Position numbers and translations under genes: made by a program. The notes under the pieces are model-generated. The model searched no databases. It saw only the letters and a program-made list of their open reading frames with translations, and was not told the origin of the DNA. This document shows positions 1,907 to 16,400 of a stretch of DNA of 56,479 nt, piece by piece. The stretch spans positions 1 through 56,479 of the IMG/VR virus record IMGVR_UViG_3300044730_001415. The stretch is one strand, 5' to 3'. This stretch comes from a virus. Position 1 is the first letter of the stretch. Each line of letters opens with the position of its first letter.

Positions 1907-1912
1907 TGCCAC

Positions 1913-1950: not shown

Positions 1951-1953
1951 GTC

Positions 1954-1978
1954 TCGTATAAATAACATGGGGTATAAT
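1954..1978 (+). promoter_or_regulatory. conserved 25-bp phage promoter, copy 2
   Basis: TCGTA variant of the TCGCA block, ACATGGGG and TATAAT (1973-1978). A TTGTCT hexamer lies 18 bp upstream of the -10, formed by the end of the preceding terminator T tract, so terminator and possible -35 overlap. Confidence 0.85.
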
Positions 1979-2003
1979 GACAACTACTACGAGAGGAATT
2001 TTA

Positions 2004-2240: not shown

Positions 2241-2245
2241 TCCAC

Positions 2246-2283
2246 AAAGCCCGAAGCACCCTAAACAAGTGCTAAGGGTTTTT
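2246..2283 (+). terminator. intrinsic terminator fused to promoter 3
   Basis: Same two-helix design as at 1913, with inner stem AGCAC/GTGCT instead of AGCGC/GCGCT (covariation) and the outer AAAGCCC/GGGTTT stem ending in a T tract. Confidence 0.85.
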
Positions 2284-2286
2284 GCC

Positions 2287-2311
2287 TCGCAAAAATAACA
2301 TGGGGTATAAC
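2287..2311 (+). promoter_or_regulatory. conserved 25-bp phage promoter, copy 3
   Basis: TCGCA, ACATGGGG and TATAAC (2306-2311) in the standard spacing; only the last base of the -10 differs from consensus. Confidence 0.8.
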
Positions 2312-2335
2312 GACCCGCTACACAGGAGGAATCAA

Positions 2336-2485
2336 GTGAAAACATTCAGAAAAGCAGGCGAAATCGTGGTAGAGAACATGACCACCGAGGAGAGTACAAA
2401 GCTGTACGTCCTTGGTGCCGTGGTCTACACCCTCGCGCTCGCCGGGCTGATCATGATCGTGAAGAAGATCATCCGCCGCAAGTAG
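2336..2485 (+). CDS. 49-residue single-pass membrane protein (micro-gene 3)
   Basis: GTG start behind a strong AGGAGG site. After about 20 charged residues there is one hydrophobic helix (LYVLGAVVYTLALAGLIMIV) and a basic tail KKIIRRK, so the C-terminus should be cytoplasmic. GC-rich codons. Monocistronic between cassettes. Function unknown. Confidence 0.75.
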   Translation: MKTFRKAGEIVVENMTTEESTKLYVLGAVVYTLALAGLIMIVKKIIRRK

Positions 2486-2492
2486 TACCCAC

Positions 2493-2530
2493 AAAGCCCG
2501 AGGCACCGTAAACAAGTGCTAAGGGTTTTT
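2493..2530 (+). terminator. intrinsic terminator fused to promoter 4
   Basis: Copy of the two-helix terminator: outer AAAGCCC/GGGTTT, inner GGCAC/GTGCT with G-T closing, loop CGTAAACAA, then a T tract. Confidence 0.85.
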
Positions 2531-2533
2531 GCT

Positions 2534-2558
2534 TCGCAGGAATCACATGGGGTATAAT
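2534..2558 (+). promoter_or_regulatory. conserved 25-bp phage promoter, copy 4
   Basis: TCGCA, CACATGGGG and TATAAT (2553-2558) with the standard spacing, directly after the terminator T tract. Confidence 0.85.
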
Positions 2559-2583
2559 AGACCCCACAGAAAGGATGTCCCCA

Positions 2584-2748
2584 ATGGACATTGTACTGAA
2601 CCTCATCGAAGCATCGGTCCTCAACCCGACCACGACAACAGGCCAGACCTTCCTCGTCGCACTATTTGCGATGTGGATGGGAAGCTGCATCAACGTGAAC
2701 AGGAGGGCGACCGCCCGCCGAAAGAGCCAGAGCAACACCCCCAAGTAA
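2584..2748 (+). CDS. 54-residue membrane protein (micro-gene 4)
   Basis: Start at the ATG 9 bases after GAAAGGA; another in-frame ATG at 2575 is too close to that site. The product has a hydrophobic segment (TGQTFLVALFAMWMGSCI) and a basic, serine-rich tail (NRRATARRKSQ). Monocistronic. No family recognised. Confidence 0.7.
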   Translation: MDIVLNLIEASVLNPTTTTGQTFLVALFAMWMGSCINVNRRATARRKSQSNTPK

Positions 2749-2762
2749 TCCCTCTCAGAGTC

Positions 2763-2801
2763 AAAACAACGCCCCGCGATAATATCAAAGGGTATTGTTT
2801 T
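2763..2801 (+). terminator. variant terminator upstream of promoter 5
   Basis: AAAACAA (2763-2769) pairs with TTGTTTT (2795-2801) and CCC with GGG inside. The sequence differs from the other cassettes, but the place and the GGGTATTGTTTTT end match the element before promoter 1. Confidence 0.6.
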
Positions 2802-2826
2802 TCGCAGGAAATACATGGAGTATAAT
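2802..2826 (+). promoter_or_regulatory. conserved 25-bp phage promoter, copy 5
   Basis: TCGCA, TACATGGAG and TATAAT (2821-2826); one G in the G-rich block is A. Confidence 0.8.
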
Positions 2827-2855
2827 GAAGTAAACCCAACAGATAAGGACCCACC

Positions 2856-3122
2856 ATGGATCATTATATCGACGACTTTACCGCCCGTTACCATGTAACA
2901 CAACTCAAGAAGGATGAGCTAGCCGCTCTTCAACGCAAGTTGGATCCCGCTAACTTCGACGGAGCAGATACACATCTCTCAATCGAAGACAAATACAAGA
3001 TTCGAACCATGCTGCAGAAGACCCTGGCCGACCTCGCGCTTCTCGAGAGTGAGCTCATGGAGCCCACGGGCGACAAGAAGCCGAAGAAGATCATTTGGAG
3101 GTTCTACTATCGAAAGAAGTAG
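2856..3122 (+). CDS. hypothetical helical protein (micro-gene 5)
   Basis: An 88-residue charged protein with two predicted amphipathic helices (VTQLKKDELAALQRKLD and IRTMLQKTLADLALLESEL) and a basic end (PKKIIWRFYYRKK). No membrane segment. The ATG follows AAGGACC. Monocistronic, flanked by cassettes; function unknown. Confidence 0.7.
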   Translation: MDHYIDDFTARYHVTQLKKDELAALQRKLDPANFDGADTHLSIEDKYKIRTMLQKTLADLALLESELMEPTGDKKPKKIIWRFYYRKK

Positions 3123-3130
3123 ATCTTCAA

Positions 3131-3168
3131 AAAGCCCGAAGCGCCCTAAACAAGTGCTAAGGGTTTTT
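3131..3168 (+). terminator. intrinsic terminator fused to promoter 6
   Basis: Outer AAAGCCC/GGGTTTT stem and inner AGCGC/GTGCT stem (one G-T pair), loop CCTAAACAA, then T tract. Confidence 0.85.
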
Positions 3169-3171
3169 GCC

Positions 3172-3196
3172 TCGCATAAATAACATGGGGTATAAT
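3172..3196 (+). promoter_or_regulatory. conserved 25-bp phage promoter, copy 6
   Basis: Perfect copy: TCGCA, ACATGGGG, TATAAT at 3191-3196. Confidence 0.85.
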
Positions 3197-3231
3197 GAAG
3201 TAGTAATCTCAATCAAACAAAGGAGAATGCC

Positions 3232-3429
3232 ATGCAGAACGACGTCACCGAGACCGTCGCTGATACCTTCATCGAGATCACCCCCAAAGGCGCGATCGCC
3301 ACTGCCCTCATGGGTGTCGGCGCGTACGTCGTGGGGAGGACCTTGGTGCGTGGTATCCGCGCTCGGAAGCCGAAGACCTCGCCCCTGCCCCCGCCCGCTC
3401 CAGTGATCATCGAGACCACTGCCCGATAG
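3232..3429 (+). CDS. 65-residue membrane protein (micro-gene 6)
   Basis: ATG after AAAGGAG. A weakly hydrophobic helix (GAIATALMGVGAYVVGRTLV) is followed by a basic stretch (RGIRARKPK) and a proline-rich tail. GC-rich codons. Monocistronic between cassettes. Function unknown. Confidence 0.7.
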   Translation: MQNDVTETVADTFIEITPKGAIATALMGVGAYVVGRTLVRGIRARKPKTSPLPPPAPVIIETTAR

Positions 3430-3440
3430 ACCGAAAGGTC

Positions 3441-3476
3441 AAGCCCGAAGCACCGTAACAAGTGCTAAGGGTTTTT
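3441..3476 (+). terminator. intrinsic terminator fused to promoter 7
   Basis: Same two-helix terminator, slightly shorter loop (CGTAACAA); inner stem GCAC/GTGC, outer stem AAGCCC/GGGTTT. Confidence 0.85.
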
Positions 3477-3479
3477 GCC

Positions 3480-3504
3480 TCGCATAAATAACATGGGTTA
3501 TAAT
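3480..3504 (+). promoter_or_regulatory. conserved 25-bp phage promoter, copy 7
   Basis: TCGCA, ACATGGGT and TATAAT (3499-3504). Confidence 0.85.
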
Positions 3505-3535
3505 GAAGCCCCATCTAACCCAATAAGGAGACCCC

Positions 3536-3688
3536 ATGCTCAAGAAGAAGACCGCAGACCTCACCGTCGGTGAGTCACTGGTGTTCGGAGTCGTGACAAC
3601 CATCGTCATGACCGCGATCACCGTTGGCCCGCTCATGGTGACCGGATACCTGGTCGACCGCAAGCAGAAGAAGTCCAAGAAGGCGTGA
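3536..3688 (+). CDS. 50-residue membrane protein (micro-gene 7)
   Basis: ATG after AAGGAG. The product has a lysine-rich start (MLKKKTADL), one hydrophobic helix (LVFGVVTTIVMTAITVGPLM) and a lysine-rich end (RKQKKSKKA). GC-rich codons. Last of the seven monocistronic micro-genes. Confidence 0.75.
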   Translation: MLKKKTADLTVGESLVFGVVTTIVMTAITVGPLMVTGYLVDRKQKKSKKA

Positions 3689-3697
3689 CCCGCTTCA

Positions 3698-3736
3698 CAA
3701 AGCCCTCGGCACCGTAACAAGTGCTAAGGGTTTTTT
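3698..3736 (+). terminator. intrinsic terminator fused to promoter 8
   Basis: AAAGCCC/GGGTTTT outer stem, GGCAC/GTGCT inner stem, six-T tract. Confidence 0.85.
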
Positions 3737-3738
3737 CG

Positions 3739-3763
3739 TCGCACCCGTAACTAGTACTATATT
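3739..3763 (+). promoter_or_regulatory. degenerate 25-bp promoter, copy 8
   Basis: TCGCA and the 25-bp spacing are kept, but the ACATGGGG block is changed and the -10 is TATATT (3758-3763). It probably drives the 3776 gene more weakly. Confidence 0.5.
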
Positions 3764-3775
3764 TTTTGGAGATAC

Positions 3776-4114
3776 ATGAGGCCCACAAAAATAAACCCGC
3801 CCCGCCTACACCCAATTGAACAAACATTAGTTGTCTTGATGAGCAGACCAAACAAATGGATTGTCGTTGATGTGTGGGAACACAAACCGCTCGCTGCCCC
3901 GTCAAATCGCCACGCGTATGTCTCTTTAACGGCGTTAGTTGCTGCTCTACGTCGACGAGGCGCCGAGACCCGAGTAAAGCGATTTGGTAGCGTGATCGTC
4001 GCTAAAGCTCGATGGACTCATCCGGTTCCAGTAGACGTTCCGGAGTTTGAAGGCCTTCGACCAAAAGATTCCACAATTGACGAATGGCTTGAGGAGGACG
4101 GACGCCTTGAATAG
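3776..4114 (+). CDS. hypothetical protein with terminase-like 41-bp segment
   Basis: A 112-residue basic protein; start ATG follows TTTTGGAG. Most of it is unrecognised, but its C-terminal GLRPKDSTIDEW matches GLRPRVSTIDEW of the large terminase Walker B region in this window, and the DNA is 38/41 identical (4050-4090 versus 18464-18504). The stop precedes the next gene by 16 bp. An internal ATG at 3839 is an alternative start. Confidence 0.6.
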   Translation: MRPTKINPPRLHPIEQTLVVLMSRPNKWIVVDVWEHKPLAAPSNRHAYVSLTALVAALRRRGAETRVKRFGSVIVAKARWTHPVPVDVPEFEGLRPKDSTIDEWLEEDGRLE

Positions 4115-4130
4115 TGGAAAAGGAGATCTT

Positions 4131-4328
4131 GTGGCAGAAAGTCTTTGTCCCTGGGATGTCTATCACAAAGAGCAATGCGAGAACGATGGCTCGCCAGAGT
4201 GTTATCAGCAATGTCTAAACGAGCGCACTCTTCGTAACGAACTAGAGAAAAATGAATTAAGACAGAAAATCGTCCTATCAACCTATAACTACGAGAAGGA
4301 TATTTATGGACTCAATAGTCGTCTGTAG
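4131..4328 (+). CDS. small cysteine-containing protein
   Basis: A 65-residue protein; GTG chosen because AAAAGGAG lies just upstream (TTG at 4128 is equally possible). Four cysteines (LCPW, EQCE, ECYQQC) followed by a charged helix (NERTLRNELEKNELRQK). A zinc site is possible but the spacing is not a standard one. Overlaps the next gene. Confidence 0.6.
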   Translation: MAESLCPWDVYHKEQCENDGSPECYQQCLNERTLRNELEKNELRQKIVLSTYNYEKDIYGLNSRL

Positions 4329-4593
4329 AGAAGAACCAGACTTCTTCACAAACCAAATAAACTTTTATGCTTACGGTGACTTTTTTGATGAAGCCCAGTT
4401 ACCAGAAACCTTTTATAAAATAGAAAAAGCTGCTTATGAATACGGAGCAGACCCGACACAAATCGAATGGGAGTGTATCGAATACTTCTACACAAGTAAT
4501 CTTAAGCATTACCGTTTGATGAGTCGGTGGAATGTGTCAAGGGACTCTGGGTACGTTGGTCGACGAGATGAGCGAATTGGGCTGTTTCGATAA
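4306..4593 (+). CDS. hypothetical protein upstream of helicase
   Basis: A 95-residue acidic, aromatic-rich protein with a ribosome site (AAGGA) inside the upstream gene. No recognised family. Its TAA overlaps the helicase ATG (TAATG), so the two are probably coupled. Confidence 0.65.
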   Translation: MDSIVVCREEPDFFTNQINFYAYGDFFDEAQLPETFYKIEKAAYEYGADPTQIEWECIEYFYTSNLKHYRLMSRWNVSRDSGYVGRRDERIGLFR

Positions 4594-5783
4594 TGATCGA
4601 ACTTCTCCCGCACCAAAAAAGAGCATTAGACCAAATCCGTAATCGAACCATTTTGTACGGCGGTGTTGGTACCGGCAAGTCGATTACCATTTTGTCTTAC
4701 TATTTAAAAGAGGAGGCACCCAAAGACATCTACGTCATTACAACAGCGAAGAAGCGGGACTCTCTTGAGTGGGAGAAGGACGCCGCTCAGCTCGGGATAT
4801 CAAGGTTAAGAGAATGCACGCCAAAGCACATTGGAGTCCTAACTGTTGACTCTTGGAACAATATTGGAAAGTACATTAACATCGAAGATGCTTTCTTTAT
4901 TTTTGACGAGCAAAGACTTGTTGGTACTGGAGCCTGGGTTAAGTCGTTTCAAAAGATCGCTCGAAACAATAACTGGGTTTTGCTTACGGCAACGCCTGGG
5001 GACACTTGGATGGACTACGTTCCCATTTTTGTGGCGAACGGCTTTTATAAAAACGCAAGTCAATTTAAACGAGAGCATGTCTTGTATGCGCCCTACTCTA
5101 AGTTCCCCAAGATAGTAAGATACCTCGGGATTAAGACGTTGGAGAAATACAGGAACATCGTCTTGGTCGAGATGCCATACCACAAGCATACGGAACGAAC
5201 ATTGGAAGAAGTTCCAGTTTGTTATGATCCGGTGTTGTTTAAGAAAGTTACTGTGGATCGTTGGCATATATTTGAAGACCGACCGATACGAGACGTATCA
5301 GAAATGTTTTCGTTAATGCGAAAAGTTGTCAATGGTGATCCAAGTCGAATTCAGGTTTTGCGTGAGCTGTTACATAAGCATCCGAAAATGATCGTCTATT
5401 ACAACTTTAATTACGAACTCGAAGCTCTTCGTACGTTGTCGGATGAGTTTGTGGTTGCTGAATGGAATGGCCATAGAAAACAACCAATTCCTGATACCGA
5501 TTCGTGGGTGTATCTGGTTCAGTATGTTAGTGGAGCAGAGGGTTGGAATTGCATACAAACTGATACAATGGCGTTCTACTCTCTAACTTACTCATACAAA
5601 AACTTCGAGCAAGCACAGGGTAGAATTGATCGTTTGAATAGTCCATTCACTCAATTACACTATTACATTCTACTCTCCAGCTCGCCAATCGACTATGCGG
5701 TACGCCAATCACTATCTAAAAAACAGCTGTTTAACGAGAAAAAATGGGCTGCGGAATCACTTGGAATTGATGTTGAGTTTTGA
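4593..5783 (+). CDS. SF2/SNF2-type DNA helicase
   Basis: A 396-residue helicase with motif Q/I region LLPHQKRAL and Walker A GGVGTGKS (residues 23-30), a DExx-type motif II FDEQR (104-108), motif III LTATP (131-135) and motif VI QAQGRIDR (340-347) preceded by GAEGWNC. This order is typical of the compact phage helicases that remodel DNA or assist replication and recombination. It is compact, without extra domains. The gene closes the operon; the AT-rich repeat region follows. Confidence 0.88.
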   Translation: MIELLPHQKRALDQIRNRTILYGGVGTGKSITILSYYLKEEAPKDIYVITTAKKRDSLEWEKDAAQLGISRLRECTPKHIGVLTVDSWNNIGKYINIEDAFFIFDEQRLVGTGAWVKSFQKIARNNNWVLLTATPGDTWMDYVPIFVANGFYKNASQFKREHVLYAPYSKFPKIVRYLGIKTLEKYRNIVLVEMPYHKHTERTLEEVPVCYDPVLFKKVTVDRWHIFEDRPIRDVSEMFSLMRKVVNGDPSRIQVLRELLHKHPKMIVYYNFNYELEALRTLSDEFVVAEWNGHRKQPIPDTDSWVYLVQYVSGAEGWNCIQTDTMAFYSLTYSYKNFEQAQGRIDRLNSPFTQLHYYILLSSSPIDYAVRQSLSKKQLFNEKKWAAESLGIDVEF

Positions 5784-6079
5784 TAAACACCCGTCAAATT
5801 TGCCAAGATTTTTTAGCGGCTTTATTTTTTGCTGATTTTTGGAGATGGTTTTTCGTTAGAAATTGGCAGTTTTCTGGGGTTAAAAGCCGGTCGAGACGGC
5901 TCTGTTTTGCTGGGAAAAACTTAACTTTTTGACTGGTATTTTCAAGTGTTTTTAAAAAGGTTAAAAAATCTTGGCAGATTTGGCGGCTTTGTTTTCAAAT
6001 CAAATCAAAAACTACAAATAAAAAAATAGCCATCTACCAGGTGTTTTGTGGTATTTTGCTTGCTCCGAGGCTGTTTGCT

Positions 6080-6121
6080 CTAAAGTGAGTATTAATGCCA
6101 AAATTTTTTCTCAACTCGTAT
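6080..6121 (+). repeat. left arm of 42-bp inverted repeat
   Basis: Pairs with 6215-6256 at 39 of 42 positions. Contains one AGTGAGTATTA core and an AAAATTTTTT tract. Could extrude as a cruciform enclosing the inner repeat. Confidence 0.9.
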
Positions 6122-6131
6122 AGAAATTTTA

Positions 6132-6148
6132 AAAGATAATACTCACTT
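6132..6148 (-). repeat. left arm of inner 17-bp inverted repeat
   Basis: AAAGATAATACTCACTT, perfectly complementary to 6188-6204; a further direct copy of its core (GATAATACTCACT) is at 6163-6175. Confidence 0.9.
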
Positions 6149-6187
6149 ACGCGCGAGATAGAGATAATACTCACTCGTGAAATTTAA

Positions 6188-6204
6188 AAGTGAGTATTAT
6201 CTTT
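6188..6204 (+). repeat. right arm of inner 17-bp inverted repeat
   Basis: AAGTGAGTATTATCTTT, the exact complement of 6132-6148. Confidence 0.9.
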
Positions 6205-6214
6205 CATTTTTTCC

Positions 6215-6256
6215 ATACGAGTTTGAAAAAAATTTTGGCATTAATACTCACTTTAG
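6215..6256 (-). repeat. right arm of 42-bp inverted repeat
   Basis: Reverse complement of 6080-6121 with three mismatches in the T-rich part. Confidence 0.9.
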
Positions 6257-6302
6257 GGCGACAACCTTGGTTTTTGTTTTTACTTCCACCAAGGGGGCGG
6301 AA

Positions 6303-6851
6303 ATGGACGAAGAATGGGTGACCATCTTCGAGTTCCCCATGTATCAAGTAAGTAGCTTAGGGAACGTTATTAATCGCAATACTGGAAGGCGCGTATCGAC
6401 AAGCCTAACCAGACAAAAAATAGTAAAGGTGGCGTTAATCAACGAAAGAGGTAGATACACAAGATCGGTGGCGCTTCTTGTAGCAAACATATTTGTGTAT
6501 GGTCGCACAGATATACTAAACACGCCAATTCATCTTGACGGTGATTTACAAAACTGTGAGGCAACAAATTTAGCATGGCGACCGCGTTGGTTTGCTTATA
6601 ACTACCATCGACAATTTCTAAAAAACAAAGACTCAACGATAGACTACATTTCTGAACTCGGTCCAGTTTATGAAACCAACACAAACATGCATTATAAAAA
6701 CATTGCAGAAGCGGCTATGCTGAATGGTTTACTTATAAAAGAAATATTCCAAAGCTCAAATAATACTGGTAGTAAACGAGTTTGGCCTACTGGACAGATT
6801 TTTGAATTTGAGGATCAAAGGTTGACCGTAAAAACACTAAGTGAGTATTAA
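6303..6851 (+). CDS. NUMOD4/HNH-family protein, probably degenerate
   Basis: A 182-residue protein starting at ATG 6303 (GGGGGCGG upstream); the upstream GTG at 6177 lies inside the repeats and is unlikely. The N-terminus has the NUMOD4 pattern (EEWVTIFEFPMYQVSSLGNV), followed by an HNH-like block (LVANIFVYG... IHLDGDLQNCEATNLAW). The first catalytic His, normally HRLVA, reads VALLVA, so nuclease activity is doubtful while DNA binding may persist. The stop codon lies within the AGTGAGTATTA repeat of the upstream region. Either an inactivated homing endonuclease or a recruited DNA-binding protein. Confidence 0.7.
   Translation: MDEEWVTIFEFPMYQVSSLGNVINRNTGRRVSTSLTRQKIVKVALINERGRYTRSVALLVANIFVYGRTDILNTPIHLDGDLQNCEATNLAWRPRWFAYNYHRQFLKNKDSTIDYISELGPVYETNTNMHYKNIAEAAMLNGLLIKEIFQSSNNTGSKRVWPTGQIFEFEDQRLTVKTLSEY
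6840..6850 (+). repeat. distal copy of the AGTGAGTATTA element
   Basis: Same 11 bp as the cores at 6084, 6190 and the reverse copies near 6138, 6163 and 6241. It includes the stop region of the HNH-like gene and sits immediately before a 25-bp promoter, as an operator would. Confidence 0.7.
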
Positions 6852-6852
6852 G

Positions 6853-6877
6853 TTGCAAGAATAACACTGGGTATAAT
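6853..6877 (+). promoter_or_regulatory. 25-bp promoter, copy 9
   Basis: TTGCA instead of TCGCA, AACACTGGG and TATAAT at 6872-6877. Adjacent to an AGTGAGTATTA element. Probably drives the nuclease/RNA polymerase-like operon. Confidence 0.75.
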
Positions 6878-6929
6878 AGGAGAGATAGAGTAACTCTAAC
6901 ACATGCTATGTTTTTTTTTGGAGAAATGC

Positions 6930-7226
6930 ATGAAAGAAAATGATTACCAAGCTAAGTTGATCAAAAAACTTAGATTATTGTTTCCGGATTGCGTCATCCA
7001 GAAAAATGATTCGTCTTACATTCAAGGATATCCGGATATTACTATTTTTTACTATGATCGTTGGGCCGCCTTAGAAGTAAAGCGAGACGCTAATGCTTCT
7101 GAGCGCCCGAATCAACAGTATTGGGTTGACACGTTAAATCAGATGTCTTACGCATCTGTGATCTATCCGGAAAACGAAACAAGGGTGCTAAATGAACTTC
7201 AACACGCACTCCGCACTTCGAGGTAA
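6930..7226 (+). CDS. VRR-NUC domain nuclease
   Basis: A 98-residue protein; start at ATG 6930 after TTGGAG. It carries the compact VRR-NUC pattern: ENDYQAKLIKKL at the N-terminus, KNDSSYIQGYPDIT (catalytic D), WAALEVK (E-x-K) and RPNQQYWV. Such single-domain PD-(D/E)XK enzymes occur in many phages next to helicases and act on branched DNA or recombination intermediates. It overlaps the next gene by 35 bp. Confidence 0.85.
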   Translation: MKENDYQAKLIKKLRLLFPDCVIQKNDSSYIQGYPDITIFYYDRWAALEVKRDANASERPNQQYWVDTLNQMSYASVIYPENETRVLNELQHALRTSR

Positions 7227-7755
7227 ACATGCCCTTTTGAGCCCAAGCAGTTATCACTGGATTAATTATAACGAACAAAAGCTAACGGCTCGTTACTATT
7301 CGGCGGCACAAGCAGCACGCGGCGTTGCTTTACACGAATATGCGCAAACTGCGATAAAGCTAGGAATAAAACAACCAAGAAGCAGTAAGACACTGTATGC
7401 TTACATCAATGATGCAATAAATTATAAGATGAAACCAGAACAAGCGCTCTATTACTCAGACAACTGCTTTGGTACCGCAGATGCAATAAGCTTCCGTAAT
7501 GGTAAGCTTAGAATTCACGATTTAAAAACAGGAATATCAAAAACATCCGAACATCAACTTGAGATCTATGCGGCGTTGTTTTGTCTTGAATATGGCGTGT
7601 CTCCGTTTGAGATAGACATAGAACTTCGCATCTATCAAAACAATGACGTATCTATATTTGTTGCAGACCCCGAAGAAATTCTAACAATCATGAATACGAT
7701 TATTGATTTCGATCGTCACGTTGAATACTTAAAGGAGAACGACCTTGATTATTGA
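7192..7755 (+). CDS. Cas4/RecB-like PD-(D/E)XK nuclease
   Basis: A 187-residue protein with ALHEYAQ early (RGVALHEYAQTA), FGTADAI, HDLKTG (D-x-K) and QLEIYAALF, the order of the RecB/Cas4 nuclease core. No cysteine cluster for an Fe-S site is evident (only two cysteines), unlike true Cas4. Likely a recombination or DNA-end-processing exonuclease. It overlaps both neighbours, so the three genes VRR-NUC, this one and the RNA polymerase-like gene form one operon. Confidence 0.75.
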   Translation: MNFNTHSALRGKHALLSPSSYHWINYNEQKLTARYYSAAQAARGVALHEYAQTAIKLGIKQPRSSKTLYAYINDAINYKMKPEQALYYSDNCFGTADAISFRNGKLRIHDLKTGISKTSEHQLEIYAALFCLEYGVSPFEIDIELRIYQNNDVSIFVADPEEILTIMNTIIDFDRHVEYLKENDLDY

Positions 7756-10489
7756 TGAGGATGAATACAAAGACTATTTGGCTCACTACGGGATTTTGCG
7801 TAAGTCTGGACGTTACCCTTGGGGTTCTGGCGGAGAAGAAATACACTATACAGAGTTTCTCAGCACTGTTGATTCTTTAAAGAAACAAGGGCTTTCGGAG
7901 ACTGCTATTGCGGCAGGCCTTGGTATGAACACGTCCGAGCTTCGAGCTCGAAAGTCAATTGCTAAGAACGAACAAAAACAAGCACGTATCGATCAGGCTT
8001 GGGGCTTAAAAGATAAGGGCGTAAGCACGTCTGAAATCGGTAGGATTATGGGTATTCCAGAATCTACTGTTCGAACGTTACTCGTCCCCGGCGAGAAAGA
8101 CAAGTTGGACCGACTTCAGTCAGTTACCAACATGTTGAAAAAAGAGGTCGATCAAAAAAAGTATCTCGACGTAGGCGATAACACTTGGTTGCATCAAGGC
8201 GTATCAGAAACAACCTGGCGCAATGCGGTTGCCTTGGCTAGAGAAGAAGGCTACACAAAACATTACGTTCGAGTGCTTCAGCTTGGTACCGGAAAAGAAA
8301 CTACAGTTAAAGTGTTAGCCGGCCCTGGAGTGAAAACGTCAGAAGTCAGAAAAAATCAAGACCTCATTCGACAAGTTCAGAATTTCTCTGATGACGGCGG
8401 TAGATCTTTCTTTGGGTTGCTGCCTCCGCTCAAAATAGATCCAAAACGAGTGGACGTAGTTTATAAAGAACAAGGCGGAGATAAACTTGACGGCGTAATA
8501 TATGTGCGCCAAGGCGTTAAAGATGTTTCTCTGGGCGATGCTCGCTACGCACAAGTTCGAATCGCGGTTGGTGATGGGCATTATATGAAGGGTATGGCTA
8601 TGTATAAAGAGGATCTGCCCAAGGGCATTGATCTTCAATTCAACACAAATAAAAGCGATACCGGAAATAAACTTGATGCACTTAAACCAGTAAAGCGTAC
8701 GGGAGAAGGCGACGTTGATGAGGCTAACCCGTTCGGTTCTATAGTTCGACAAATCGTGGCTAGAGAATCAGATGGTAAGCAGTATTTAACTGGATATGGC
8801 AAGAACCTGACTGATGGTACAGAAAAAGTGATCTCTGCCATGAACATTGTGCATGAAGAAGGAAACTGGTCGAACTGGTCAGACACCCTGTCTAAACAAG
8901 TACTATCTAAGCAAAGCACAAAATTAGCAAAAACACAGTTGGACATGACGTATGAGAGTAAGGAAGCAGAATTCAAAGAAATCGCTAAGCTTACTAACCC
9001 GGCCGTTCGAAAGCTACTTTTAGAAAAGCTAGCTGATGATGTTGATTCTTCAGCAGTACATTTGAAGGCCGCTGCGTTAAAGGGTCAAGGGACTCACGTC
9101 ATTCTTCCGATTGGCTCTATGCCCCCGAGTCAAGTTTATGCGCCGAATTACCTTGATGGAACAAAAGTCGTGTTAATTCGATTCCCGCATGGTGGCACTT
9201 TTGAGATTCCAGAATTGACGGTGAACAACAAGCAACCCGAAGCAAAGCGATTGCTGAAGGACGCACGAGATGCGATTGGCATTCATCACTCCGTTGCCGA
9301 AAGGTTGTCTGGCGCAGACTTCGATGGCGACACGGTACTCGTAATACCAAATGACGGCCCTGTTTCTAAAAGAATAGATACAACACGAGCACTGGAAGAC
9401 TTACAAGGGTTTGACCCAAGAAGTTCTTATCGTCGTTATGAGGGCATGAAAGTTATGACCGCACGCGAAAAAGGACTCGAGATGGGTCTCGTGTCAAACT
9501 TAATTACTGACATGACTTTACGAGGCGCGTCTAGAAGCGAACTAGCTAGAGCAATTAAACACTCAATGGTAGTCATTGATGCTGAGAAACACGAACTAAA
9601 CTATAAGCAATCGGCGATAGACAATGGCATTCCCGCATTAAAAGCTAAGTATCAAGGTGGACCAACCGCCGGTGCATCCACTCTAATCTCGTTATCAAAC
9701 CAACAGCTTAGAGTCCCCGACCTCAAACCAAGGCGGGCGCAAGATGGTGGACCAATAGACAAAGCTACGGGCAAAAGGGTATTTGATCCGGCATCTGCTG
9801 AAACTTTTGTTAATAGCAAAGGAAAACAAAACGTAAGAACAAGGCAGTCGGTTAGGCTCGCGGAGACCGACGATGCGTTTACTTTAATTAAAAATACCCC
9901 CACCCAAATTGAAAAGGTATACGCTGAGCATTCTAACAAACTAAAGAACCTTGCTAATGAAATCAGATTAGAGCAAATCAATACCCCCAATGTGGTGAGG
10001 TCGCCATCTGCAGCCAAAGTTTATAAGAAAGAAGTAGATTCCCTGACAGCTAAGCTTCGCATAGCTGAAAGAAACGCCCCCCTTGAAAGGCAGGCTCAGA
10101 TCTTTGCTAATGCTATTGTTCGTATGCGTCAAGCAGCCAATCCTGATATGGACAAAGAAACATTAAAGAAGGTTAAAACCCAGGCCCTAAATCAAGCCCG
10201 TACCCGAACAGGTGCAGGCAAGGATAAAATAGTCATCACTCCAGACGAGTGGAATGCCATTCAACAGGGTGCCGTGTCCAACACAAAACTCAATGAGATT
10301 CTAAGACAATCTGACATTGACGTAGTGCGACAGTTTGCTACACCAGTAAACAAAAAGATTATGACTTCTAATAAAGTTGTAAGAGCCAAGCAAATGTTGG
10401 CCAGTGGCTACACAAGAGCCGAAGTCGCAGCAAAGTTTGGTATCTCTTTAACAACACTAGACACTGCAGTAAACGAGTCCGAGGCTTAG
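7745..10489 (+). CDS. putative single-chain double-psi beta-barrel RNA polymerase
   Basis: A 914-residue protein with a TTG start 8 bases after AAGGAG. Residues 525-529 are DFDGD in the context HHSVAERLSGADFDGDTV, the metal-binding signature of the beta' subunit of cellular RNA polymerases (NADFDGD) and of YonO-type phage enzymes; the stretch before it (VVLIRFPHGG...) fits the barrel. A lysine-bearing segment near residues 285-305 (HYMKGMAMYKEDLP) may be the beta-like barrel. Helix-turn-helix stretches lie near residues 50-115 (LSETAIAAGLGM, VSTSEIGRIMGIPESTV) and at the C-terminus (TRAEVAAKFGI). The extreme N-terminus holds a LAHYG motif shared with two virion-module proteins. Polymerase activity is inferred, not shown. 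Confidence 0.65.
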   Translation: MIIDEDEYKDYLAHYGILRKSGRYPWGSGGEEIHYTEFLSTVDSLKKQGLSETAIAAGLGMNTSELRARKSIAKNEQKQARIDQAWGLKDKGVSTSEIGRIMGIPESTVRTLLVPGEKDKLDRLQSVTNMLKKEVDQKKYLDVGDNTWLHQGVSETTWRNAVALAREEGYTKHYVRVLQLGTGKETTVKVLAGPGVKTSEVRKNQDLIRQVQNFSDDGGRSFFGLLPPLKIDPKRVDVVYKEQGGDKLDGVIYVRQGVKDVSLGDARYAQVRIAVGDGHYMKGMAMYKEDLPKGIDLQFNTNKSDTGNKLDALKPVKRTGEGDVDEANPFGSIVRQIVARESDGKQYLTGYGKNLTDGTEKVISAMNIVHEEGNWSNWSDTLSKQVLSKQSTKLAKTQLDMTYESKEAEFKEIAKLTNPAVRKLLLEKLADDVDSSAVHLKAAALKGQGTHVILPIGSMPPSQVYAPNYLDGTKVVLIRFPHGGTFEIPELTVNNKQPEAKRLLKDARDAIGIHHSVAERLSGADFDGDTVLVIPNDGPVSKRIDTTRALEDLQGFDPRSSYRRYEGMKVMTAREKGLEMGLVSNLITDMTLRGASRSELARAIKHSMVVIDAEKHELNYKQSAIDNGIPALKAKYQGGPTAGASTLISLSNQQLRVPDLKPRRAQDGGPIDKATGKRVFDPASAETFVNSKGKQNVRTRQSVRLAETDDAFTLIKNTPTQIEKVYAEHSNKLKNLANEIRLEQINTPNVVRSPSAAKVYKKEVDSLTAKLRIAERNAPLERQAQIFANAIVRMRQAANPDMDKETLKKVKTQALNQARTRTGAGKDKIVITPDEWNAIQQGAVSNTKLNEILRQSDIDVVRQFATPVNKKIMTSNKVVRAKQMLASGYTRAEVAAKFGISLTTLDTAVNESEA

Positions 10490-10502
10490 GAAGGAGGAAA
10501 GC

Positions 10503-10808
10503 ATGAGCGACATAACTAATTCAAACAACACTAAGTTAAACGATACTAATGCGAAACAATACGAGTCTATGCTTACTACTGTTGACAATCCATTTGATCC
10601 GTTTACTCAATTCAAGCCTTGGTTTTCTTTTGATATAGCCTCCGGGTACCACACACTGGCCTTGCTAGCTAGAATCATCAATACATCCAATGAAATGTCA
10701 GACGCCGACCAACTAGCTGCCAACGAACTAGCCATCGATGAAATACTTATGGAAAACGTTAGTGGTATGCATAGACGAGTCATGCGAGAAGTAGATAGTA
10801 ACGTCTAG
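10503..10808 (+). CDS. conserved phage protein
   Basis: A 101-residue acidic protein following the polymerase-like gene after an AGGAGG site. The central block TVDNPFDPFTQFKPWFSFDIASG and LARIINTS resembles a family common in phages of Gram-positive bacteria, found near the start of the packaging module. Function unknown. Confidence 0.75.
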   Translation: MSDITNSNNTKLNDTNAKQYESMLTTVDNPFDPFTQFKPWFSFDIASGYHTLALLARIINTSNEMSDADQLAANELAIDEILMENVSGMHRRVMREVDSNV

Positions 10809-10831
10809 TTGCGGTAAAGCTCTACCCGGGG

Positions 10832-10862
10832 GAGGGGGTCTTCAAAAATACCCCCCCCTTGT
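10832..10862 (+). terminator. intrinsic terminator
   Basis: GGGGGT pairs with ACCCCC across CTTCAAAAAT, followed by CCTTGTTTA. It probably ends the nuclease/polymerase operon. A CCCGGGGGAG decamer occurs just before it (10825-10834) and again at 10888-10897. Confidence 0.6.
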
Positions 10863-10944
10863 TTATCGCCGGTGTCCTCTATATTTCCCCGGGGGAGCAT
10901 TTACCATGATCAATTTACGATTCGACTATCAATTGAGGACTTAG

Positions 10945-11241
10945 ATGAGTGACGAGATTAACTTTAATGTGTCAACCCCGTTCACAAACGTGGTAAGTCG
11001 CGGCGGTAAATTTGATGACGCTTCTTTTTATGCCGGATTCGAAATGGGAAATCTTGACTTCAAGTTATTTCAAATGAATGCGATCCAAGCGGACTCCCTT
11101 TGTGTCGTAATTCTTAGCGATAACCTGCATCAAGCCGATATCATCGCAATGAAACATGGTTTAGTTTTGACGGAAAAGACATTTAATGACACAGGCAACC
11201 TGTGTAGTTGTCGGTTCGCAAAAGCTAATCATGTGCTCTAA
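10945..11241 (+). CDS. hypothetical protein
   Basis: A 98-residue protein starting after TTGAGGAC. It contains a central Rossmann-like-looking stretch (SLCVVILSDNLHQADIIAM) but no recognised motif. It opens the next gene cluster. Confidence 0.6.
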   Translation: MSDEINFNVSTPFTNVVSRGGKFDDASFYAGFEMGNLDFKLFQMNAIQADSLCVVILSDNLHQADIIAMKHGLVLTEKTFNDTGNLCSCRFAKANHVL

Positions 11242-11262
11242 CCCCTATAGGGAGTACGTGCA

Positions 11263-11538
11263 ATGAATGAGTTTGAAAAGCTCCAACATAAAAAACTTAT
11301 TGAGCAACGACAAAAAAAATGTGTGACCTGTTCTGGTGTACTTAGTTTACCAAAAACAAAAATTAAACAGTTTTACGAAGCGCTATTAGATCACAGTATA
11401 AGTGCTCCAGTCATTTGTGAGGTTTTAAATGATTGGGGAATAGCTTCAAGCACCAGCACAATCTTAAACCACAGACACGGGCGCGACAGCTATGCGGCAC
11501 ATATGGCCGTAATAAAAAAGGCGGCAGGAATTGAATAA
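11263..11538 (+). CDS. small helix-turn-helix protein
   Basis: A 91-residue basic protein with CVTC near residue 20 and a helical segment (SAPVICEVLNDWGIASSTSTILNHRHG) that looks like a helix-turn-helix with a conserved histidine-rich end. Similar small proteins sit before metallophosphoesterase genes in actinophages. It could be a regulator or part of the terminase complex. The start has GGGAG upstream. Confidence 0.6.
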   Translation: MNEFEKLQHKKLIEQRQKKCVTCSGVLSLPKTKIKQFYEALLDHSISAPVICEVLNDWGIASSTSTILNHRHGRDSYAAHMAVIKKAAGIE

Positions 11539-12652
11539 GTCAAAAACAGATGATTTCTCCAAGGCGCAAAACGAATCCGATCTTTATCTTGCTCGACTTA
11601 AAGCAGATAAGCTTGAACGAACCTTAAAAACCACAACGCTTAATTTAGCAGAAAGCGCTAAACGCGTCGAAGAGCTTGAACGTTCATTAAAAATTTTTGA
11701 AAAGATTGACAAGTTCAATCCAAATCCGGATTGGCTGGTTAAACAACCCGCATCAAGTTCAAAGAAACATCACGGAACTTGGACCGTTATGCTCAGTGAT
11801 CTTCACCTTGATGAAGTCGTCAATGTGCATGAAGTTATGGGTATGAACAAGCTTGATCGCCAAATTTCCGAAATGCGTTTAAAGAAAATTTTTAACGGAA
11901 TAGTTAAAATTGCAGACGATTGGCATAGTGGTATTTCTGTGGACGGTCTTGTTCTACAGCTCGGCGGTGACCTTTTTGCCGGAGTCATTCATGATGAACT
12001 TCGCAGAACGAACTCGGCCCCAATTCTTGACACGCTTGATTATTGGATCGATCCCTTTGTACAAGGCATCGAAATGTTAGCGAAGCATTTTGGTAAAATT
12101 TACATTCCGGTCGTGGTTGGTAATCATGGGCGATACGATCGTAAACCAATTGCCAAACTCAGAGCTCGCGAAAACTATGACTGGTACTTCAGTAAAGTGG
12201 TGGCGCGAGTAGTGGCTGAGCGTAAAATAAAAGGCGTCGACTTTCATATTTCAGACAGCGCAGATGTCACATACATGACTTATGGTTATCGCAAAATGCT
12301 TACACATGGCGATCAAGCTAGTGGCGGTTCTGGTTGGGGCGGCATTATGTCACCCATTATGCGCATGGATGATAAGAAACAAAAGCGACAATCTGCGGTC
12401 GGTCTCTCGTACGACTACATGGACATTGGGCACTGGCATCAACTTATTTGGCTCCCACGAGGAATGATTAACGGGTGCATGTCCGGTTACGATGAGTACG
12501 CCTTCCTCAATAACTTTGGGTTCGAAGAGCCACAGCAAGGCATGTATCTTATGACCCCAGAACACGGAAGAACGTTTACCGCACCTATATTTTGTCAAGA
12601 TAGTGTTGCCGAAGGCTGGGGCGACAAGAGTGTACAGTCGCTTAGAAATTAG
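11531..12652 (+). CDS. calcineurin-like metallophosphoesterase
   Basis: A 373-residue protein with a TTG start overlapping the upstream stop. The metal-binding motifs are in order: SDLHLD (D90, H92), GGDLFAG, VGNHGR, THGD and GHWHQL. The N-terminal 75 residues form a probable coiled coil. Phage enzymes of this type act as nucleases or phosphodiesterases in DNA processing; the exact substrate is unknown. Position beside terminase-type genes suggests a DNA role. Confidence 0.85.
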   Translation: MNKSKTDDFSKAQNESDLYLARLKADKLERTLKTTTLNLAESAKRVEELERSLKIFEKIDKFNPNPDWLVKQPASSSKKHHGTWTVMLSDLHLDEVVNVHEVMGMNKLDRQISEMRLKKIFNGIVKIADDWHSGISVDGLVLQLGGDLFAGVIHDELRRTNSAPILDTLDYWIDPFVQGIEMLAKHFGKIYIPVVVGNHGRYDRKPIAKLRARENYDWYFSKVVARVVAERKIKGVDFHISDSADVTYMTYGYRKMLTHGDQASGGSGWGGIMSPIMRMDDKKQKRQSAVGLSYDYMDIGHWHQLIWLPRGMINGCMSGYDEYAFLNNFGFEEPQQGMYLMTPEHGRTFTAPIFCQDSVAEGWGDKSVQSLRN

Positions 12653-12664
12653 AAAGGAGAGTAT

Positions 12665-13015
12665 ATGGTTGCTCGCAATGCTTCATCGGGAAAACAAAAA
12701 TTAGAACGCAAAATAAAACCGGCAACCACTCCGGAAGGTCAAGAAACGTTAATGATCTCTAGAGCTATGCAGCTTGCCGAAAAACAGATAGAAGAGGGCA
12801 CTGCATCCGCGCAAGTCATAACGCATTTTTTGAAACTAGGCACTACAAGAGAGCGCCTAGAACAGCAGCGGCTTCAGCACGAAAACGAGCTTCTTAAAAA
12901 GAAAACAGAAGCAATGGAGTCGGCTAAGGAAGTCGAAGCATTGTATCGAGAGGCACTTAACGCGATGCGAAGCTACAACGGAGAAGAAACAGATTTAGAT
13001 GGCCAAGAAGATTAG
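12665..13015 (+). CDS. probable small terminase-like protein
   Basis: A 116-residue, highly charged helical protein after AAAGGAG. The block EGTASAQVITHFLKLGTTRER and a following coiled-coil helix match a family that precedes packaging genes in many phages of Gram-positive bacteria and is often suspected to be the small terminase. That role is inferred from position. It overlaps the HNH gene by 17 bp. Confidence 0.55.
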   Translation: MVARNASSGKQKLERKIKPATTPEGQETLMISRAMQLAEKQIEEGTASAQVITHFLKLGTTRERLEQQRLQHENELLKKKTEAMESAKEVEALYREALNAMRSYNGEETDLDGQED

Positions 13016-13415
13016 AACTTATTCTGAGCTAAAGCAATTTGATAGCTTTGAGGATAGGTACGCTTATTTACGTCTTGGTGGTGAAGTTGGAGCTTCAACG
13101 TTTGGGTTTGATCGCTACATCAACCAGGCTTTTTATACTTCTACCGAGTGGAAAAGAGCGCGACGCATTGCTATCGCTCGCGATTCTGGTTGTGACTTAG
13201 GCGTTTTAGGTATGTATATTCATGCAAATTTGCTGGTGCATCACATGAACCCAGTTGAGCTTGATGATTTATTGGATCATGAAGAGTGGGTTCTCGACCC
13301 AGAATATCTAATCACGACTTCTCAAAACACGCATAATGCCATTCACTATGGGGACGTAAGTCTTTTACCGCAAAAAATAGTGGATCGATCGCCTGGTGAC
13401 ACAAAACTTTGGTAG
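12999..13415 (+). CDS. HNH endonuclease
   Basis: A 138-residue protein with an HNH core: LLVHHMNP, a linker to LDPEYLITTSQNTHNAIHYGD. The conserved histidines and asparagines are present. HNH proteins next to terminase genes support DNA packaging cleavage in HK97-like phages; alternatively it is a free-standing homing nuclease. Confidence 0.8.
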   Translation: MAKKIRTYSELKQFDSFEDRYAYLRLGGEVGASTFGFDRYINQAFYTSTEWKRARRIAIARDSGCDLGVLGMYIHANLLVHHMNPVELDDLLDHEEWVLDPEYLITTSQNTHNAIHYGDVSLLPQKIVDRSPGDTKLW

Positions 13416-13426
13416 AAAGGAATCAA

Positions 13427-14239
13427 ATGTCTAAAGTTTTATATCCTTTTGGTTATGGTACACGGCTAGTAGATTTAGAAACAATTAAAGAATATTTACG
13501 TTTTCGCATGCATCCGGAAGCTTTCAGACGAACTATTAATTTTATTATACACCAAGGCGGGAAGTTTGGACCTGGCGGAGCAAGGAGAGCGCGAGGGGGA
13601 CAACCTAACAAACCGGGTTTTGCCCTTGAAGGTCAGTCCTTTCATCAAGACCAAAATTTTCCGTCAGGACTATACTACACGGCAGTGGACTGGGTTGTTG
13701 TAAATCCTGGACACAAACATCGCGCCCCAAACTGGGATGAAGTTCCAAAACAAGGATCTTTAGCGGCAATTCAGTATGGTTATCATATGAATGTTGGTGG
13801 GCCTGGTGAAAAAGGCGCCGAGTCATGGCATGGTCAACCAATTGAGTTAGATGGATGGAACACTTGGGTCGCTGCCGGCCGTCCAGACCTTGATTACTCT
13901 TATCAATTAGCCGAAGTCACACCTCGCCAGCAACCTCCACAACCTCCTGTCCCATCAACGCAACCATCAACTTCGGGAGTCATCGTGCAAATTAAGTCTC
14001 GTTATCTAAAAGAAGGCGCTGTCGGGAATGACGTAAAGTTCTTTCAGCGACAGCTAAACGAAATAGCCGGTCAAAGTCTTCTTATTGATGGGTATTACGG
14101 ATCAAAAACAAAAGATTCAGTAAGAAACTGGCAGGCGTTTTTTAAGAAAACAAGTGACGGGATTGTTCTCCCGCTTCATGGTGAGCTTGACAGTCTTACA
14201 CAAAAGTCGATCATTGAAGTCTCTCTTCTGACGGCATAA
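13427..14239 (+). CDS. endolysin: M15-like peptidase plus peptidoglycan-binding domain
   Basis: A 270-residue protein starting at ATG 13427 (GAAAGGAATCAA upstream). Residues 40-150 hold SFHQDQNF (H73), AVD (D88) and ESWH (H135), the zinc-ligand layout of M15 D-Ala-D-Ala-type peptidases. A proline/glutamine-rich linker (165-182) leads to a peptidoglycan-binding domain (LKEGAVGNDVKFFQRQL... DGYYGSKTKDSV). It should cleave peptide stems of the host wall at lysis. It is far from the holins at 38.1-38.8 kb. Confidence 0.75.
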   Translation: MSKVLYPFGYGTRLVDLETIKEYLRFRMHPEAFRRTINFIIHQGGKFGPGGARRARGGQPNKPGFALEGQSFHQDQNFPSGLYYTAVDWVVVNPGHKHRAPNWDEVPKQGSLAAIQYGYHMNVGGPGEKGAESWHGQPIELDGWNTWVAAGRPDLDYSYQLAEVTPRQQPPQPPVPSTQPSTSGVIVQIKSRYLKEGAVGNDVKFFQRQLNEIAGQSLLIDGYYGSKTKDSVRNWQAFFKKTSDGIVLPLHGELDSLTQKSIIEVSLLTA

Positions 14240-14348
14240 TACTTATTTGTCTCCCTTTAAATCGACAGAGACATAAAAATGAGTAATATTAAAAACTTTT
14301 CCATCTATAGTGCCGCCTAAAATTTAACGGCAAGAAAAGAGAATTAAA

Positions 14349-16400
14349 ATGAGCGCTATTTTAAAATCAACAACCGTTTCTACACCACCAATTAATACTA
14401 TTCCGGGTAACATCACCACAAAGTTTCGAGAGGCGTTTGAGAGTTACACGCCCGATGAGATCTGGGACGAGAACAAAGCGTCTGGTGACATTATTCAACT
14501 CGACGGTAATGCCGCCGCAGCTTCGTACCTCGTCATTTCTAAAGATCCGCATCAGGCCGGTACTGAGAGCAGTATTGAAACCACTCTGACGTTCACTCTC
14601 CCCGTAGAGATGGCGTTCGGTGTTTCAATGTCACAGCGCACGGTCGGGCAAGAGTTCGCTGTTGAAATCGTGGACACTGGTGCGCCGCTGGCCAATATCT
14701 CCGACATCGAAATCTCTAGCATCTCGCAGACCACGACAGTGCTGACCGTCAACACGACCACCAACCACGGCCTCAGTATTGGCAAGAGTGTCGGCGTCCG
14801 TGGGTGCTCCAACCAGTTGGCAAACTACCCGTCGTTAGTAGTTGCGTCAGTACCCGCCCCAAACCAGTTCACCTGTACGGTCGCGACAGGCACCATCACG
14901 AACCCTACTGGGGCTAAGGGCTTCGTGTATTTCCGTGAGCGTTTGGGTCGTGCTCAGAACGGCGTCTCGCAGATCTTTGAGACAGCCTCTGCTACACAGT
15001 CAAACCTGTACGTCCGGAGCGAGTCGGGCGATGCTCTCCCCTCGGGTGTAATCGCTGGTAGCCACGCCATCACGGTCGGTACGACCAACCCAGTCGCTCT
15101 TGCCTCGAGCCCGTACACCTACGCCTGGTCCCCGACGACCGAGTACCGCATTGTCTCGCAGGCTGACCGTGTGCAGTGGTCTGACGCCCCAGTGGACACG
15201 GTCACCCAGGCGTCGAACCGCGCCCTCCGCACCCAGGTGTGTCCCGACCCAAGCGCCACCTACAAGCTGCGGATTCGTGCTGTAAATAATAAGTCGTTAA
15301 CCGTTCCAAACGCAAAAGTCGTCTCGGTCGTGAAGTCTGGTACGACAACGGCTACGTTCACAACGGATGTGGACCATGGCTACACCACTGGCGATTTAGT
15401 AGTTTACTACGGCTCTAACGACCAGGGGGCCGCAAACTTCCCGAACCTTTTGACTGCGACGGCGATCACGGTGACGACGGCCAACACCTTCACTGCCGTG
15501 ATCGGTACTGGCACCACGGGCACTGGCTTTGGTGGCTACGTTGCCAAGGTCAATGGCGGCAACCTGATGTCGTCGCTCGGCGCAATCGCTATTACGGCGA
15601 TCAACGCGACTCTATCCACTCTTAGTGATGGCACCCGTCAGTTAGTGCTCACGGGAAGCGGCAACTGGTCTGGTGTAGCTATCGGCGACTACGTGAACGT
15701 GGTCGGTTGTCGCACTCTTGCGGCAAACCTCGGCGTGGACGGCGCATGGAAGGTTGCCAACTTTGCCACTACGACACTGACGCTGGTTCCTGCTACGAGT
15801 ACAATGGTGCCGTCGCTTCCCGCCGACTTCGGTCTCACCGTGTGCGGTGGCGGTGTCATCCGACGCACGTCGATGTTCCTTTCGTTCGTGCGAATCTTCG
15901 ACTACGAGCGAGAGCGAGTGGAAGTCATGGCTCGTCCCGCTGGTGATTTGTCCGGTTCGTTGCCGGTCGTCCTTCAGGGTGGCACCACCGCCGTTACGGG
16001 TACCTTAACGGGTGTCACCACGGTTTCGGCTGTGACAACCGCAAACGTCGTCCCTCAGGCGCCGGCTACTCAGTATTCCGTGAGCTCACTTGCAACAACT
16101 AACGCCGCTCTTATTTTAACGGGATCTTCTGGTCTTGGGGCCTTCTATGCGTCTAACACTGGCGCTACAGATGCTTTCGTTAAGTTGTACAACAAAGCGA
16201 CAGCACCGACGGTCGGAACTGATGTTCCGCTTATGGTTATCAGGGTCCCTGCGACGGGACAAGTGGAGTTAACTCCGGGTTTTACTGGATACCGCTTCCC
16301 GCTTGGACTCGGTATCGCCATCACAGGCGCCGCCGCCGATTCCGATACAACTGCCGTTGCTCTTAATCAGGTTAAGGTTCAGTTAAGTAGGACTGCATGA
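14349..16400 (+). CDS. large virion structural protein
   Basis: A 683-residue secreted-looking beta-rich protein, threonine/serine/glycine-rich. The N-terminal region (IIQLDGNAAAASYLVISKDP and MSQRTVGQEFAVEIV) resembles a phage structural family seen in actinophages and myoviruses. Repeated motifs such as TTTVLTVNTTTNHGL and TTTATFTTDVDHGY suggest tandem Ig-like or beta-sandwich domains. C/G-ending codons suggest high expression. Possibly a capsid decoration or fibre protein; it opens the virion gene block. Confidence 0.65.
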   Translation: MSAILKSTTVSTPPINTIPGNITTKFREAFESYTPDEIWDENKASGDIIQLDGNAAAASYLVISKDPHQAGTESSIETTLTFTLPVEMAFGVSMSQRTVGQEFAVEIVDTGAPLANISDIEISSISQTTTVLTVNTTTNHGLSIGKSVGVRGCSNQLANYPSLVVASVPAPNQFTCTVATGTITNPTGAKGFVYFRERLGRAQNGVSQIFETASATQSNLYVRSESGDALPSGVIAGSHAITVGTTNPVALASSPYTYAWSPTTEYRIVSQADRVQWSDAPVDTVTQASNRALRTQVCPDPSATYKLRIRAVNNKSLTVPNAKVVSVVKSGTTTATFTTDVDHGYTTGDLVVYYGSNDQGAANFPNLLTATAITVTTANTFTAVIGTGTTGTGFGGYVAKVNGGNLMSSLGAIAITAINATLSTLSDGTRQLVLTGSGNWSGVAIGDYVNVVGCRTLAANLGVDGAWKVANFATTTLTLVPATSTMVPSLPADFGLTVCGGGVIRRTSMFLSFVRIFDYERERVEVMARPAGDLSGSLPVVLQGGTTAVTGTLTGVTTVSAVTTANVVPQAPATQYSVSSLATTNAALILTGSSGLGAFYASNTGATDAFVKLYNKATAPTVGTDVPLMVIRVPATGQVELTPGFTGYRFPLGLGIAITGAAADSDTTAVALNQVKVQLSRTA

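Follow-up and report, generated by a model that had tools for sequence, protein, structure and literature searches.

A predicted single-chain, two-barrel RNA polymerase with built-in DNA-binding modules and a candidate 27-bp promoter in a large phage lineage

The DNA analysed here, called the window throughout, comprises the 56,479 bases of a virus record and carries nearly all of its genes on the + strand. A cluster of early genes (~0.2–7 kb) is followed by an operon that encodes an endonuclease, an exonuclease and a predicted RNA polymerase (RNAP), and a late block of packaging, head and tail genes occupies ~12.7–38.8 kb; past it lie middle or replication genes, among them a fused helicase/DNA polymerase, and tRNAs (Table 1). 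The gene order is that of Arthrobacter phage Gordon, Streptomyces phage Scap1 and Lactococcus phage 1706, but rotated. A preliminary description of this DNA had named nucleases and packaging genes as the neighbours of the polymerase gene, and both are found there. A conserved element that follows the operon aligns with the published cohesive end of 1706, GCCCTGTCT, which places the likely cos site of the window near GCCGGTGTC, and a strong hairpin (10815–10862) lies just 5' of it. It appears that the window is a genome in rotated form whose cos ends have been joined.

Other features of the window are recorded in their own right. Two paralogues of unknown function (DUF6353/PHROG 2152; 39539–40339 and 42356–43246) both match a single gene of Lactococcus phage 1706, and two large ORFs of the late block, 14349–16400 (683 aa) and 28411–30348 (645 aa), are without significant PHROG match. 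Between 52620 and 55130 are tRNA-Lys, -Ile(TAT), -Thr and -Leu(TAA), with a AACCTGAGCATGTTTTAAAACTGCTC element repeated at 52900, 53160 and 53542. A 44-nt repeat, 91% identical, is shared by positions 4047–4090, within an ORF at 3776–4114, and 18461–18504 in the terminase gene; as this ORF matches the terminase (E 4e-5), it looks like a terminase fragment.

Table 1. Positions of the features discussed, numbered along the window.
Feature	Positions	Strand	Remarks
27-bp promoter-like motif	1611–1637	+	motif scan
27-bp promoter-like motif	1954–1980	+	motif scan
27-bp promoter-like motif	2287–2313	+	motif scan
27-bp promoter-like motif	2534–2560	+	motif scan
27-bp promoter-like motif	2802–2828	+	motif scan
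27-bp promoter-like motif	3172–3198	+	motif scan
27-bp promoter-like motif	3480–3506	+	motif scan
Divergent motif copy	6853–6879	+	50 bp upstream of endonuclease-exonuclease-RNAP operon
VRR-Nuc-type endonuclease	6903–7226	+	same operon as RNAP; kept across lineage
Exonuclease (PHROG 3953)	7192–7755	+	same operon as RNAP; kept across lineage
Single-chain two-barrel RNA polymerase, PHROG 4291 family	7745–10489	+	TTG start, 914 aa
Conserved N-terminal peptide YLAHYGILRKSGRYPWGSG (within residues 9–29)	7769–7831	+	predicted disordered; resembles HYGxKGMxWG tag of head-module proteins
HTH 1 (residues 35–75)	7847–7969	+	model; recognition-helix R67 in 55/57
HTH 2 (residues 85–114)	7997–8086	+	Pfam HTH_23/Sigma70_r4_2; R110 in 53/57
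Winged-helix-like domain (residues 140–192)	8162–8320	+	best Z 8.0, TFIIIC tau138 eWH; moderate
Barrel B region (residues ~228–330), invariant K282, K303, K314	8426–8734	+	alignment, structure matches
Barrel A region (residues ~445–540), invariant R479 and catalytic loop	9077–9364	+	alignment, AF2 model, structure matches
DFDGD catalytic metal-binding motif (residues 525–529, within LSGADFDGDTVLVIP)	9317–9331	+	57/57
C-terminal HTH (residues 871–910)	10355–10474	+	Pfam HTH_28/HTH_7
Small conserved protein, function unknown (PHROG 4303)	10503–10808	+	immediately 3' of RNAP in 4/4 genomes compared
Likely cos site GCCGGTGTC	10868–10876	+	alignment with published 1706 overhang GCCCTGTCT
Terminase	17665–19524		downstream of RNAP gene
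27-bp promoter-like motif, first one past late block	38774–38800	+	motif scan
27-bp promoter-like motif	39201–39227	+	motif scan
27-bp promoter-like motif	39433–39459	+	motif scan
27-bp promoter-like motif	41432–41458	+	motif scan
27-bp promoter-like motif	50293–50319	+	motif scan

Upstream of its TTG start the frame of the RNAP gene stays open for only four codons more (918 aa), and the product matches the PHROG 4291 profile over its full length (1230.5 bits; residues 6–912 against profile positions 6–908 of 909). This family of ~250 phages is labelled 'RNA-dependent RNA polymerase' in databases. Members in actinophages and in Lactococcus phage 1706 are full-length homologues with the same gene order (37–57% identity in the named phages) and are known by name only, either as above or as 'helix-turn-helix DNA-binding domain protein', many submitters having recognised only the helix-turn-helix (HTH). 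In the literature searched, no work on the activity, the promoter or the structure of the family turned up, and no relatives of the window RNAP were found in plasmids. The window RNAP is a member of a known family for which no characterisation was found, and as far as we could find its built-in DNA-binding modules and candidate promoter are new.

A search of PDB sequences gave no match when the protein alone was the query; with the profile it returned mainly HTH-like or helical pieces, together with a weak match to a tape-measure RNAP (8h2n, E 0.72). For structural comparison an AF2 model was built from 57 relatives (mean pLDDT 81). Both significant PDB matches in Foldseek were RDR2 (E 8e-6), and a second structural aligner placed QDE-1 at the top (Z 13.5; 355 residues at 4.2 Å, residues 227–744 of the window RNAP), with QDE-1, RDR2 and the phage proteins gp64 and gp62 (Z 11.7 and 11.6) outranking the largest subunits of cellular enzymes (Z ~10); the P23-45 protein A7XX94 is among the best viral structural matches. 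The alignments with QDE-1, RDR2 and gp64 span residues 227–744 or more of the model and so take in two double-psi beta-barrels in one chain, as judged by coverage rather than by strand-by-strand topology. The catalytic DxDxD loop of barrel A is present as DFDGD, in exactly the ORF and at exactly the residues given in the preliminary description, and the conserved basic residues of barrel B that mark the superfamily are represented by K282, K303 and K314; these lysines, R479 and DFDGD are invariant in all 57 aligned relatives. In QDE-1 the first barrel contributes K743 and K767, and a one-to-one equivalence of K282, K303 and K314 with these residues is inferred from spacing. The earlier suggestion of a double-psi-barrel polymerase with a DFDGD hallmark thus survives comparison: the best structural matches are single-chain two-barrel RNAPs, with both barrel regions aligned, and neither of the outcomes that would have refuted it, a fold without two such barrels or a better match to an unrelated family, was obtained. 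By its modelled fold and its residues, both of which are computed, the window protein is a two-barrel RNA polymerase; that it synthesises RNA is inferred.

QDE-1 and RDR2, although the best matches across both barrels, are eukaryotic enzymes of RNA silencing with 11–15% identity to the window RNAP. As these closest solved folds copy RNA (QDE-1 also DNA), the database name could be taken at its word and the protein regarded as an RNA-dependent RNA polymerase, or else as a maker of primers for DNA replication: in Pfam, the fused helicase/DNA polymerase of the lineage matched domains of D5-like helicases and of family B polymerases and gave no match to a catalytic primase domain. We consider this highly improbable, as the name rests on distant similarity only, the gene belongs to a dsDNA phage genome, several DNA-binding modules are fused to the polymerase, and the related phage enzymes that have been tested on a DNA template, YonO and P23-45 gp64, use DNA (PMC5467207, PMC10770324).

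A survey has placed phage and plasmid single-chain RNAPs and the RNAi polymerases in one clade (PMC10770324). YonO of Bacillus phage SPbeta shares with the window RNAP a single chain, a D-x-D-G-D loop and an R and an H before that loop. The kinship with YonO put forward in the preliminary description holds for the superfamily but is distant, being limited to ~80–120 residues of weak similarity (BLASTP E 0.017; hhalign E 0.016, probability 2.8). Membership of the YonO family itself (PHROG 8308) was considered and rejected: the profile matches only residues 457–537 (E 6e-4), and the C-terminal CxxC...CxxC that is invariant in the YonO alignment (C799, C802, C816, C819) is missing from the window RNAP, which ends in an HTH. 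As far as sequence comparison can tell, the window RNAP is a sister family of YonO in the same superfamily. The two also differ in that YonO, with its C-terminal cysteines, serves late genes, whereas the window RNAP has HTH modules and goes with putative early and middle promoters. YonO transcribes late genes from a start near its own gene, and its promoter and any helper factors are not known (PMC5467207). The non-virion RNAPs gp64 and gp62 of P23-45 and P74-26 are likewise single-chain two-barrel phage enzymes but are shorter (~600 aa, against 914 aa) and of low sequence identity, and since the alignment starts at residue 92–93 of gp64/gp62 there is little room in them for an N-terminal DNA-binding region. 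In P23-45, gp64 is responsible for early and for some middle transcription, and late genes are left to the host RNAP (PMC10770324), which provides a precedent for an early and middle phage RNAP opposite to that of YonO (PMC5467207).

The HTH stretches that had been noticed at both ends of the window RNAP pass Pfam cut-offs, with HTH_23 and Sigma70_r4_2 at residues 85–113 and HTH_28 and HTH_7 at 871–909. In a model of the N-terminal region (pLDDT 86.5), two HTHs precede a winged-helix-like unit; the structural matches here, to KorB/ParB and sigma-28 HTHs and to TFIIIC/TFIIE winged helices, are moderate (Z 5.5–8.0) and suggestive only. A putative recognition-helix arginine in each of the two HTHs is nearly invariant among the relatives (Table 1).

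A 27-bp motif, TCGCA-N4-TTACA-N5-TATARTGA (in the window, TCGCA.aAAtaACAtGGggTATAATga), occurs in 13 copies; every one is on the RNAP strand, and most lie immediately 5' of early genes. The copies score 31.7–43.6 bits, against no more than 13.0 in shuffled sequence, and most of them end 19–32 nt 5' of a start codon with a Shine-Dalgarno-like sequence. A plain sigma-70 promoter scan of positions 1–20000 gave no signal (25 found against 28.8 expected). Eight near-identical hairpin-plus-T terminators are present at 1912–3735, 39391–39429 and 55154–55192, several of them directly upstream of the motif, so that the early genes look like single-gene terminator-promoter cassettes.

An unbiased repeat search recovered the motif with identical spacing in Gordon, Scap1 and 1706 (34–61% G+C), and the same fixed spacing is seen in RNAP-carrying phages of Arthrobacter, Gordonia, Streptomyces and Lactococcus. 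Nine genomes contain 97 sites, with none inside the late block, and in five of the nine a divergent copy lies 50–277 bp 5' of the RNAP operon. A fixed PWM was used for these counts; in the A+T-rich Lactococcus genome an iterated one had picked up weak sites of doubtful standing (13–24 bits). A tenth genome, in which no HNH or terminase was found, was left out. Among 35 IMG/VR records that encode the RNAP, 149 of the 150 sites with up to three mismatches are on the RNAP strand, the reversed pattern giving 2, and every such record of at least 40 kb (18 of 18) has at least two sites; control records encoding YonO yield 12, all at three mismatches, against 13 for the reversed pattern, which is background. 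When IMG/VR was scanned with the motif only, the RNAP proved to be encoded in 28 of the 29 records of at least 40 kb among the matches listed. The one record without it, again among the matches listed, was examined as a counter-example and dismissed, its first ORFs showing that the contig stops before the RNAP position. In 257 Gb of bacterial genomes there are 22 exact stretches, against ~15 expected by chance on our own estimate, and 6 of the 21 genomes that contain them carry a PHROG 4291-type RNAP; being near chance, the motif is not a common host promoter. No earlier report of it was found in the literature searched.

The motif, its conservation, its strand and its location are computed, and its persistence over phages of two host phyla and so wide a range of G+C content, combined with a frequency close to chance in bacteria, suggests that its reader is encoded by the phage. 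We think it probable, though far from assured, that this reader is the RNAP, which would be a promoter-specific, DNA-dependent phage enzyme with the motif as its early and middle promoter; catalysis, template type, initiation, the reading of the motif and its timing are all inferred. The RNAP and other genes of the lineage, such as the DNA polymerase PHROG 4210, co-occur almost perfectly, and an attempt to separate the RNAP from the rest by means of that polymerase was not possible. As the whole lineage moves together, the tie between RNAP and motif is a strong association and not proof, and another phage factor could read the motif. The merely moderate structural matches of the N-terminal domain (best Z 8.0) likewise count against the proposal. 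A different lineage-wide DNA-binding protein might read the motif and activate the host RNAP, leaving the polymerase another task: the motif goes together with every gene of the lineage, and several shared proteins are without known domain or fold. This seems to us distinctly unlikely, in that a Pfam HTH is found, among the proteins common to four divergent genomes, in the RNAP only, and its putative recognition-helix residues are almost unvarying.

The motif could also be an early promoter that the host RNAP uses unaided or with the help of a phage factor. The window RNAP would then be a YonO-like polymerase of late genes, starting close to its own gene at a promoter yet to be identified. The RNAP gene sits where the early region ends, beside the late genes as in the case of YonO, a position that by analogy would suit a late polymerase, and here too the late module is directly 3' of it. 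In the window (11531–12652) as in SPbeta (17731–18945, yonJ), the stretch from RNAP to terminase includes a PHROG 284 exonuclease, of which Gordon, Scap1 and 1706 show no counterpart. The TATAAT included in the motif resembles the bacterial −10 box, so that host RNAP might use these sites, with or without an activator, and the early units of the window end in terminators of the host-RNAP type. We nevertheless hold this to be rather unlikely. The upstream boxes are not at −35 spacing and are conserved across two phyla, the whole motif is no more than near chance level in bacterial genomes, and the gap between RNAP and late genes in four genomes contains no conserved promoter-like element except the likely cos region. 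The phage-specific promoters mentioned in the preliminary description are real, but, as putative promoters, they stand at early and middle genes, whereas YonO serves late ones.

If the window RNAP does read the motif, a catalytically competent, single-chain, DNA-dependent RNAP of the two-barrel superfamily would recognise TCGCA-N4-TTACA-N5-TATARTGA through its two N-terminal HTHs and winged helix and its one C-terminal HTH. The three boxes begin at intervals of 9 and 10 bp, which sets them on one helix face, an arrangement that, we infer, would suit adjacent HTHs. Early and middle phage genes would be transcribed without a sigma factor, and transcription of its own operon through the divergent motif copy would provide positive feedback. 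The late block, which is without the motif, would be served by another polymerase, presumably that of the host, as reported for P23-45. The idea of a phage-encoded transcription programme thus gains support, since terminal HTHs and phage-specific promoters, the latter far beyond chance, are both real and conserved across a large phage lineage.

Another intriguing feature is the N-terminus of the RNAP, whose first 30 residues are predicted to be disordered yet are well conserved (HYG...SGRYPWGSG). A similar tag, HYGVKGMKWG, is borne by several proteins whose genes lie around terminase and portal, and one of these, orf7 of 1706, has been annotated as structural. The tag, as H[YF]GVxGxxWGxR (PF23847/DUF7211), is present in head-module proteins encoded at 16953–17720 (residue 138) and 19966–20394 (residue 49) of the window and in Gordon genes 6 and 8–11; it is possibly a cargo or assembly signal, and the literature searched contained no earlier report of an HYG tag. 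One might speculate, with more doubt than conviction, that phages of Actinobacteria and Firmicutes have in common a fixed three-box promoter read by a sigma-free two-barrel RNAP with fused tandem HTHs and winged helix, and that the virion takes up this RNAP by means of its N-terminal HYG...GRYPWGSG tag and injects it along with the DNA, so that early transcription can begin.

How single-chain relatives of cellular RNAP find their promoters is an open question. In ~250 sequenced phages, several of which grow on laboratory hosts, an enzyme is now available that has DNA-binding modules of its own and a precisely defined candidate promoter. Across the whole collection, the labels 'HTH protein' and 'RNA-dependent RNA polymerase' would need correction. 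If the proposed reading is true, this would be a two-barrel polymerase that needs no sigma or TBP-type factor to initiate at specific sites, and together with its promoter it would form a new orthogonal pair.
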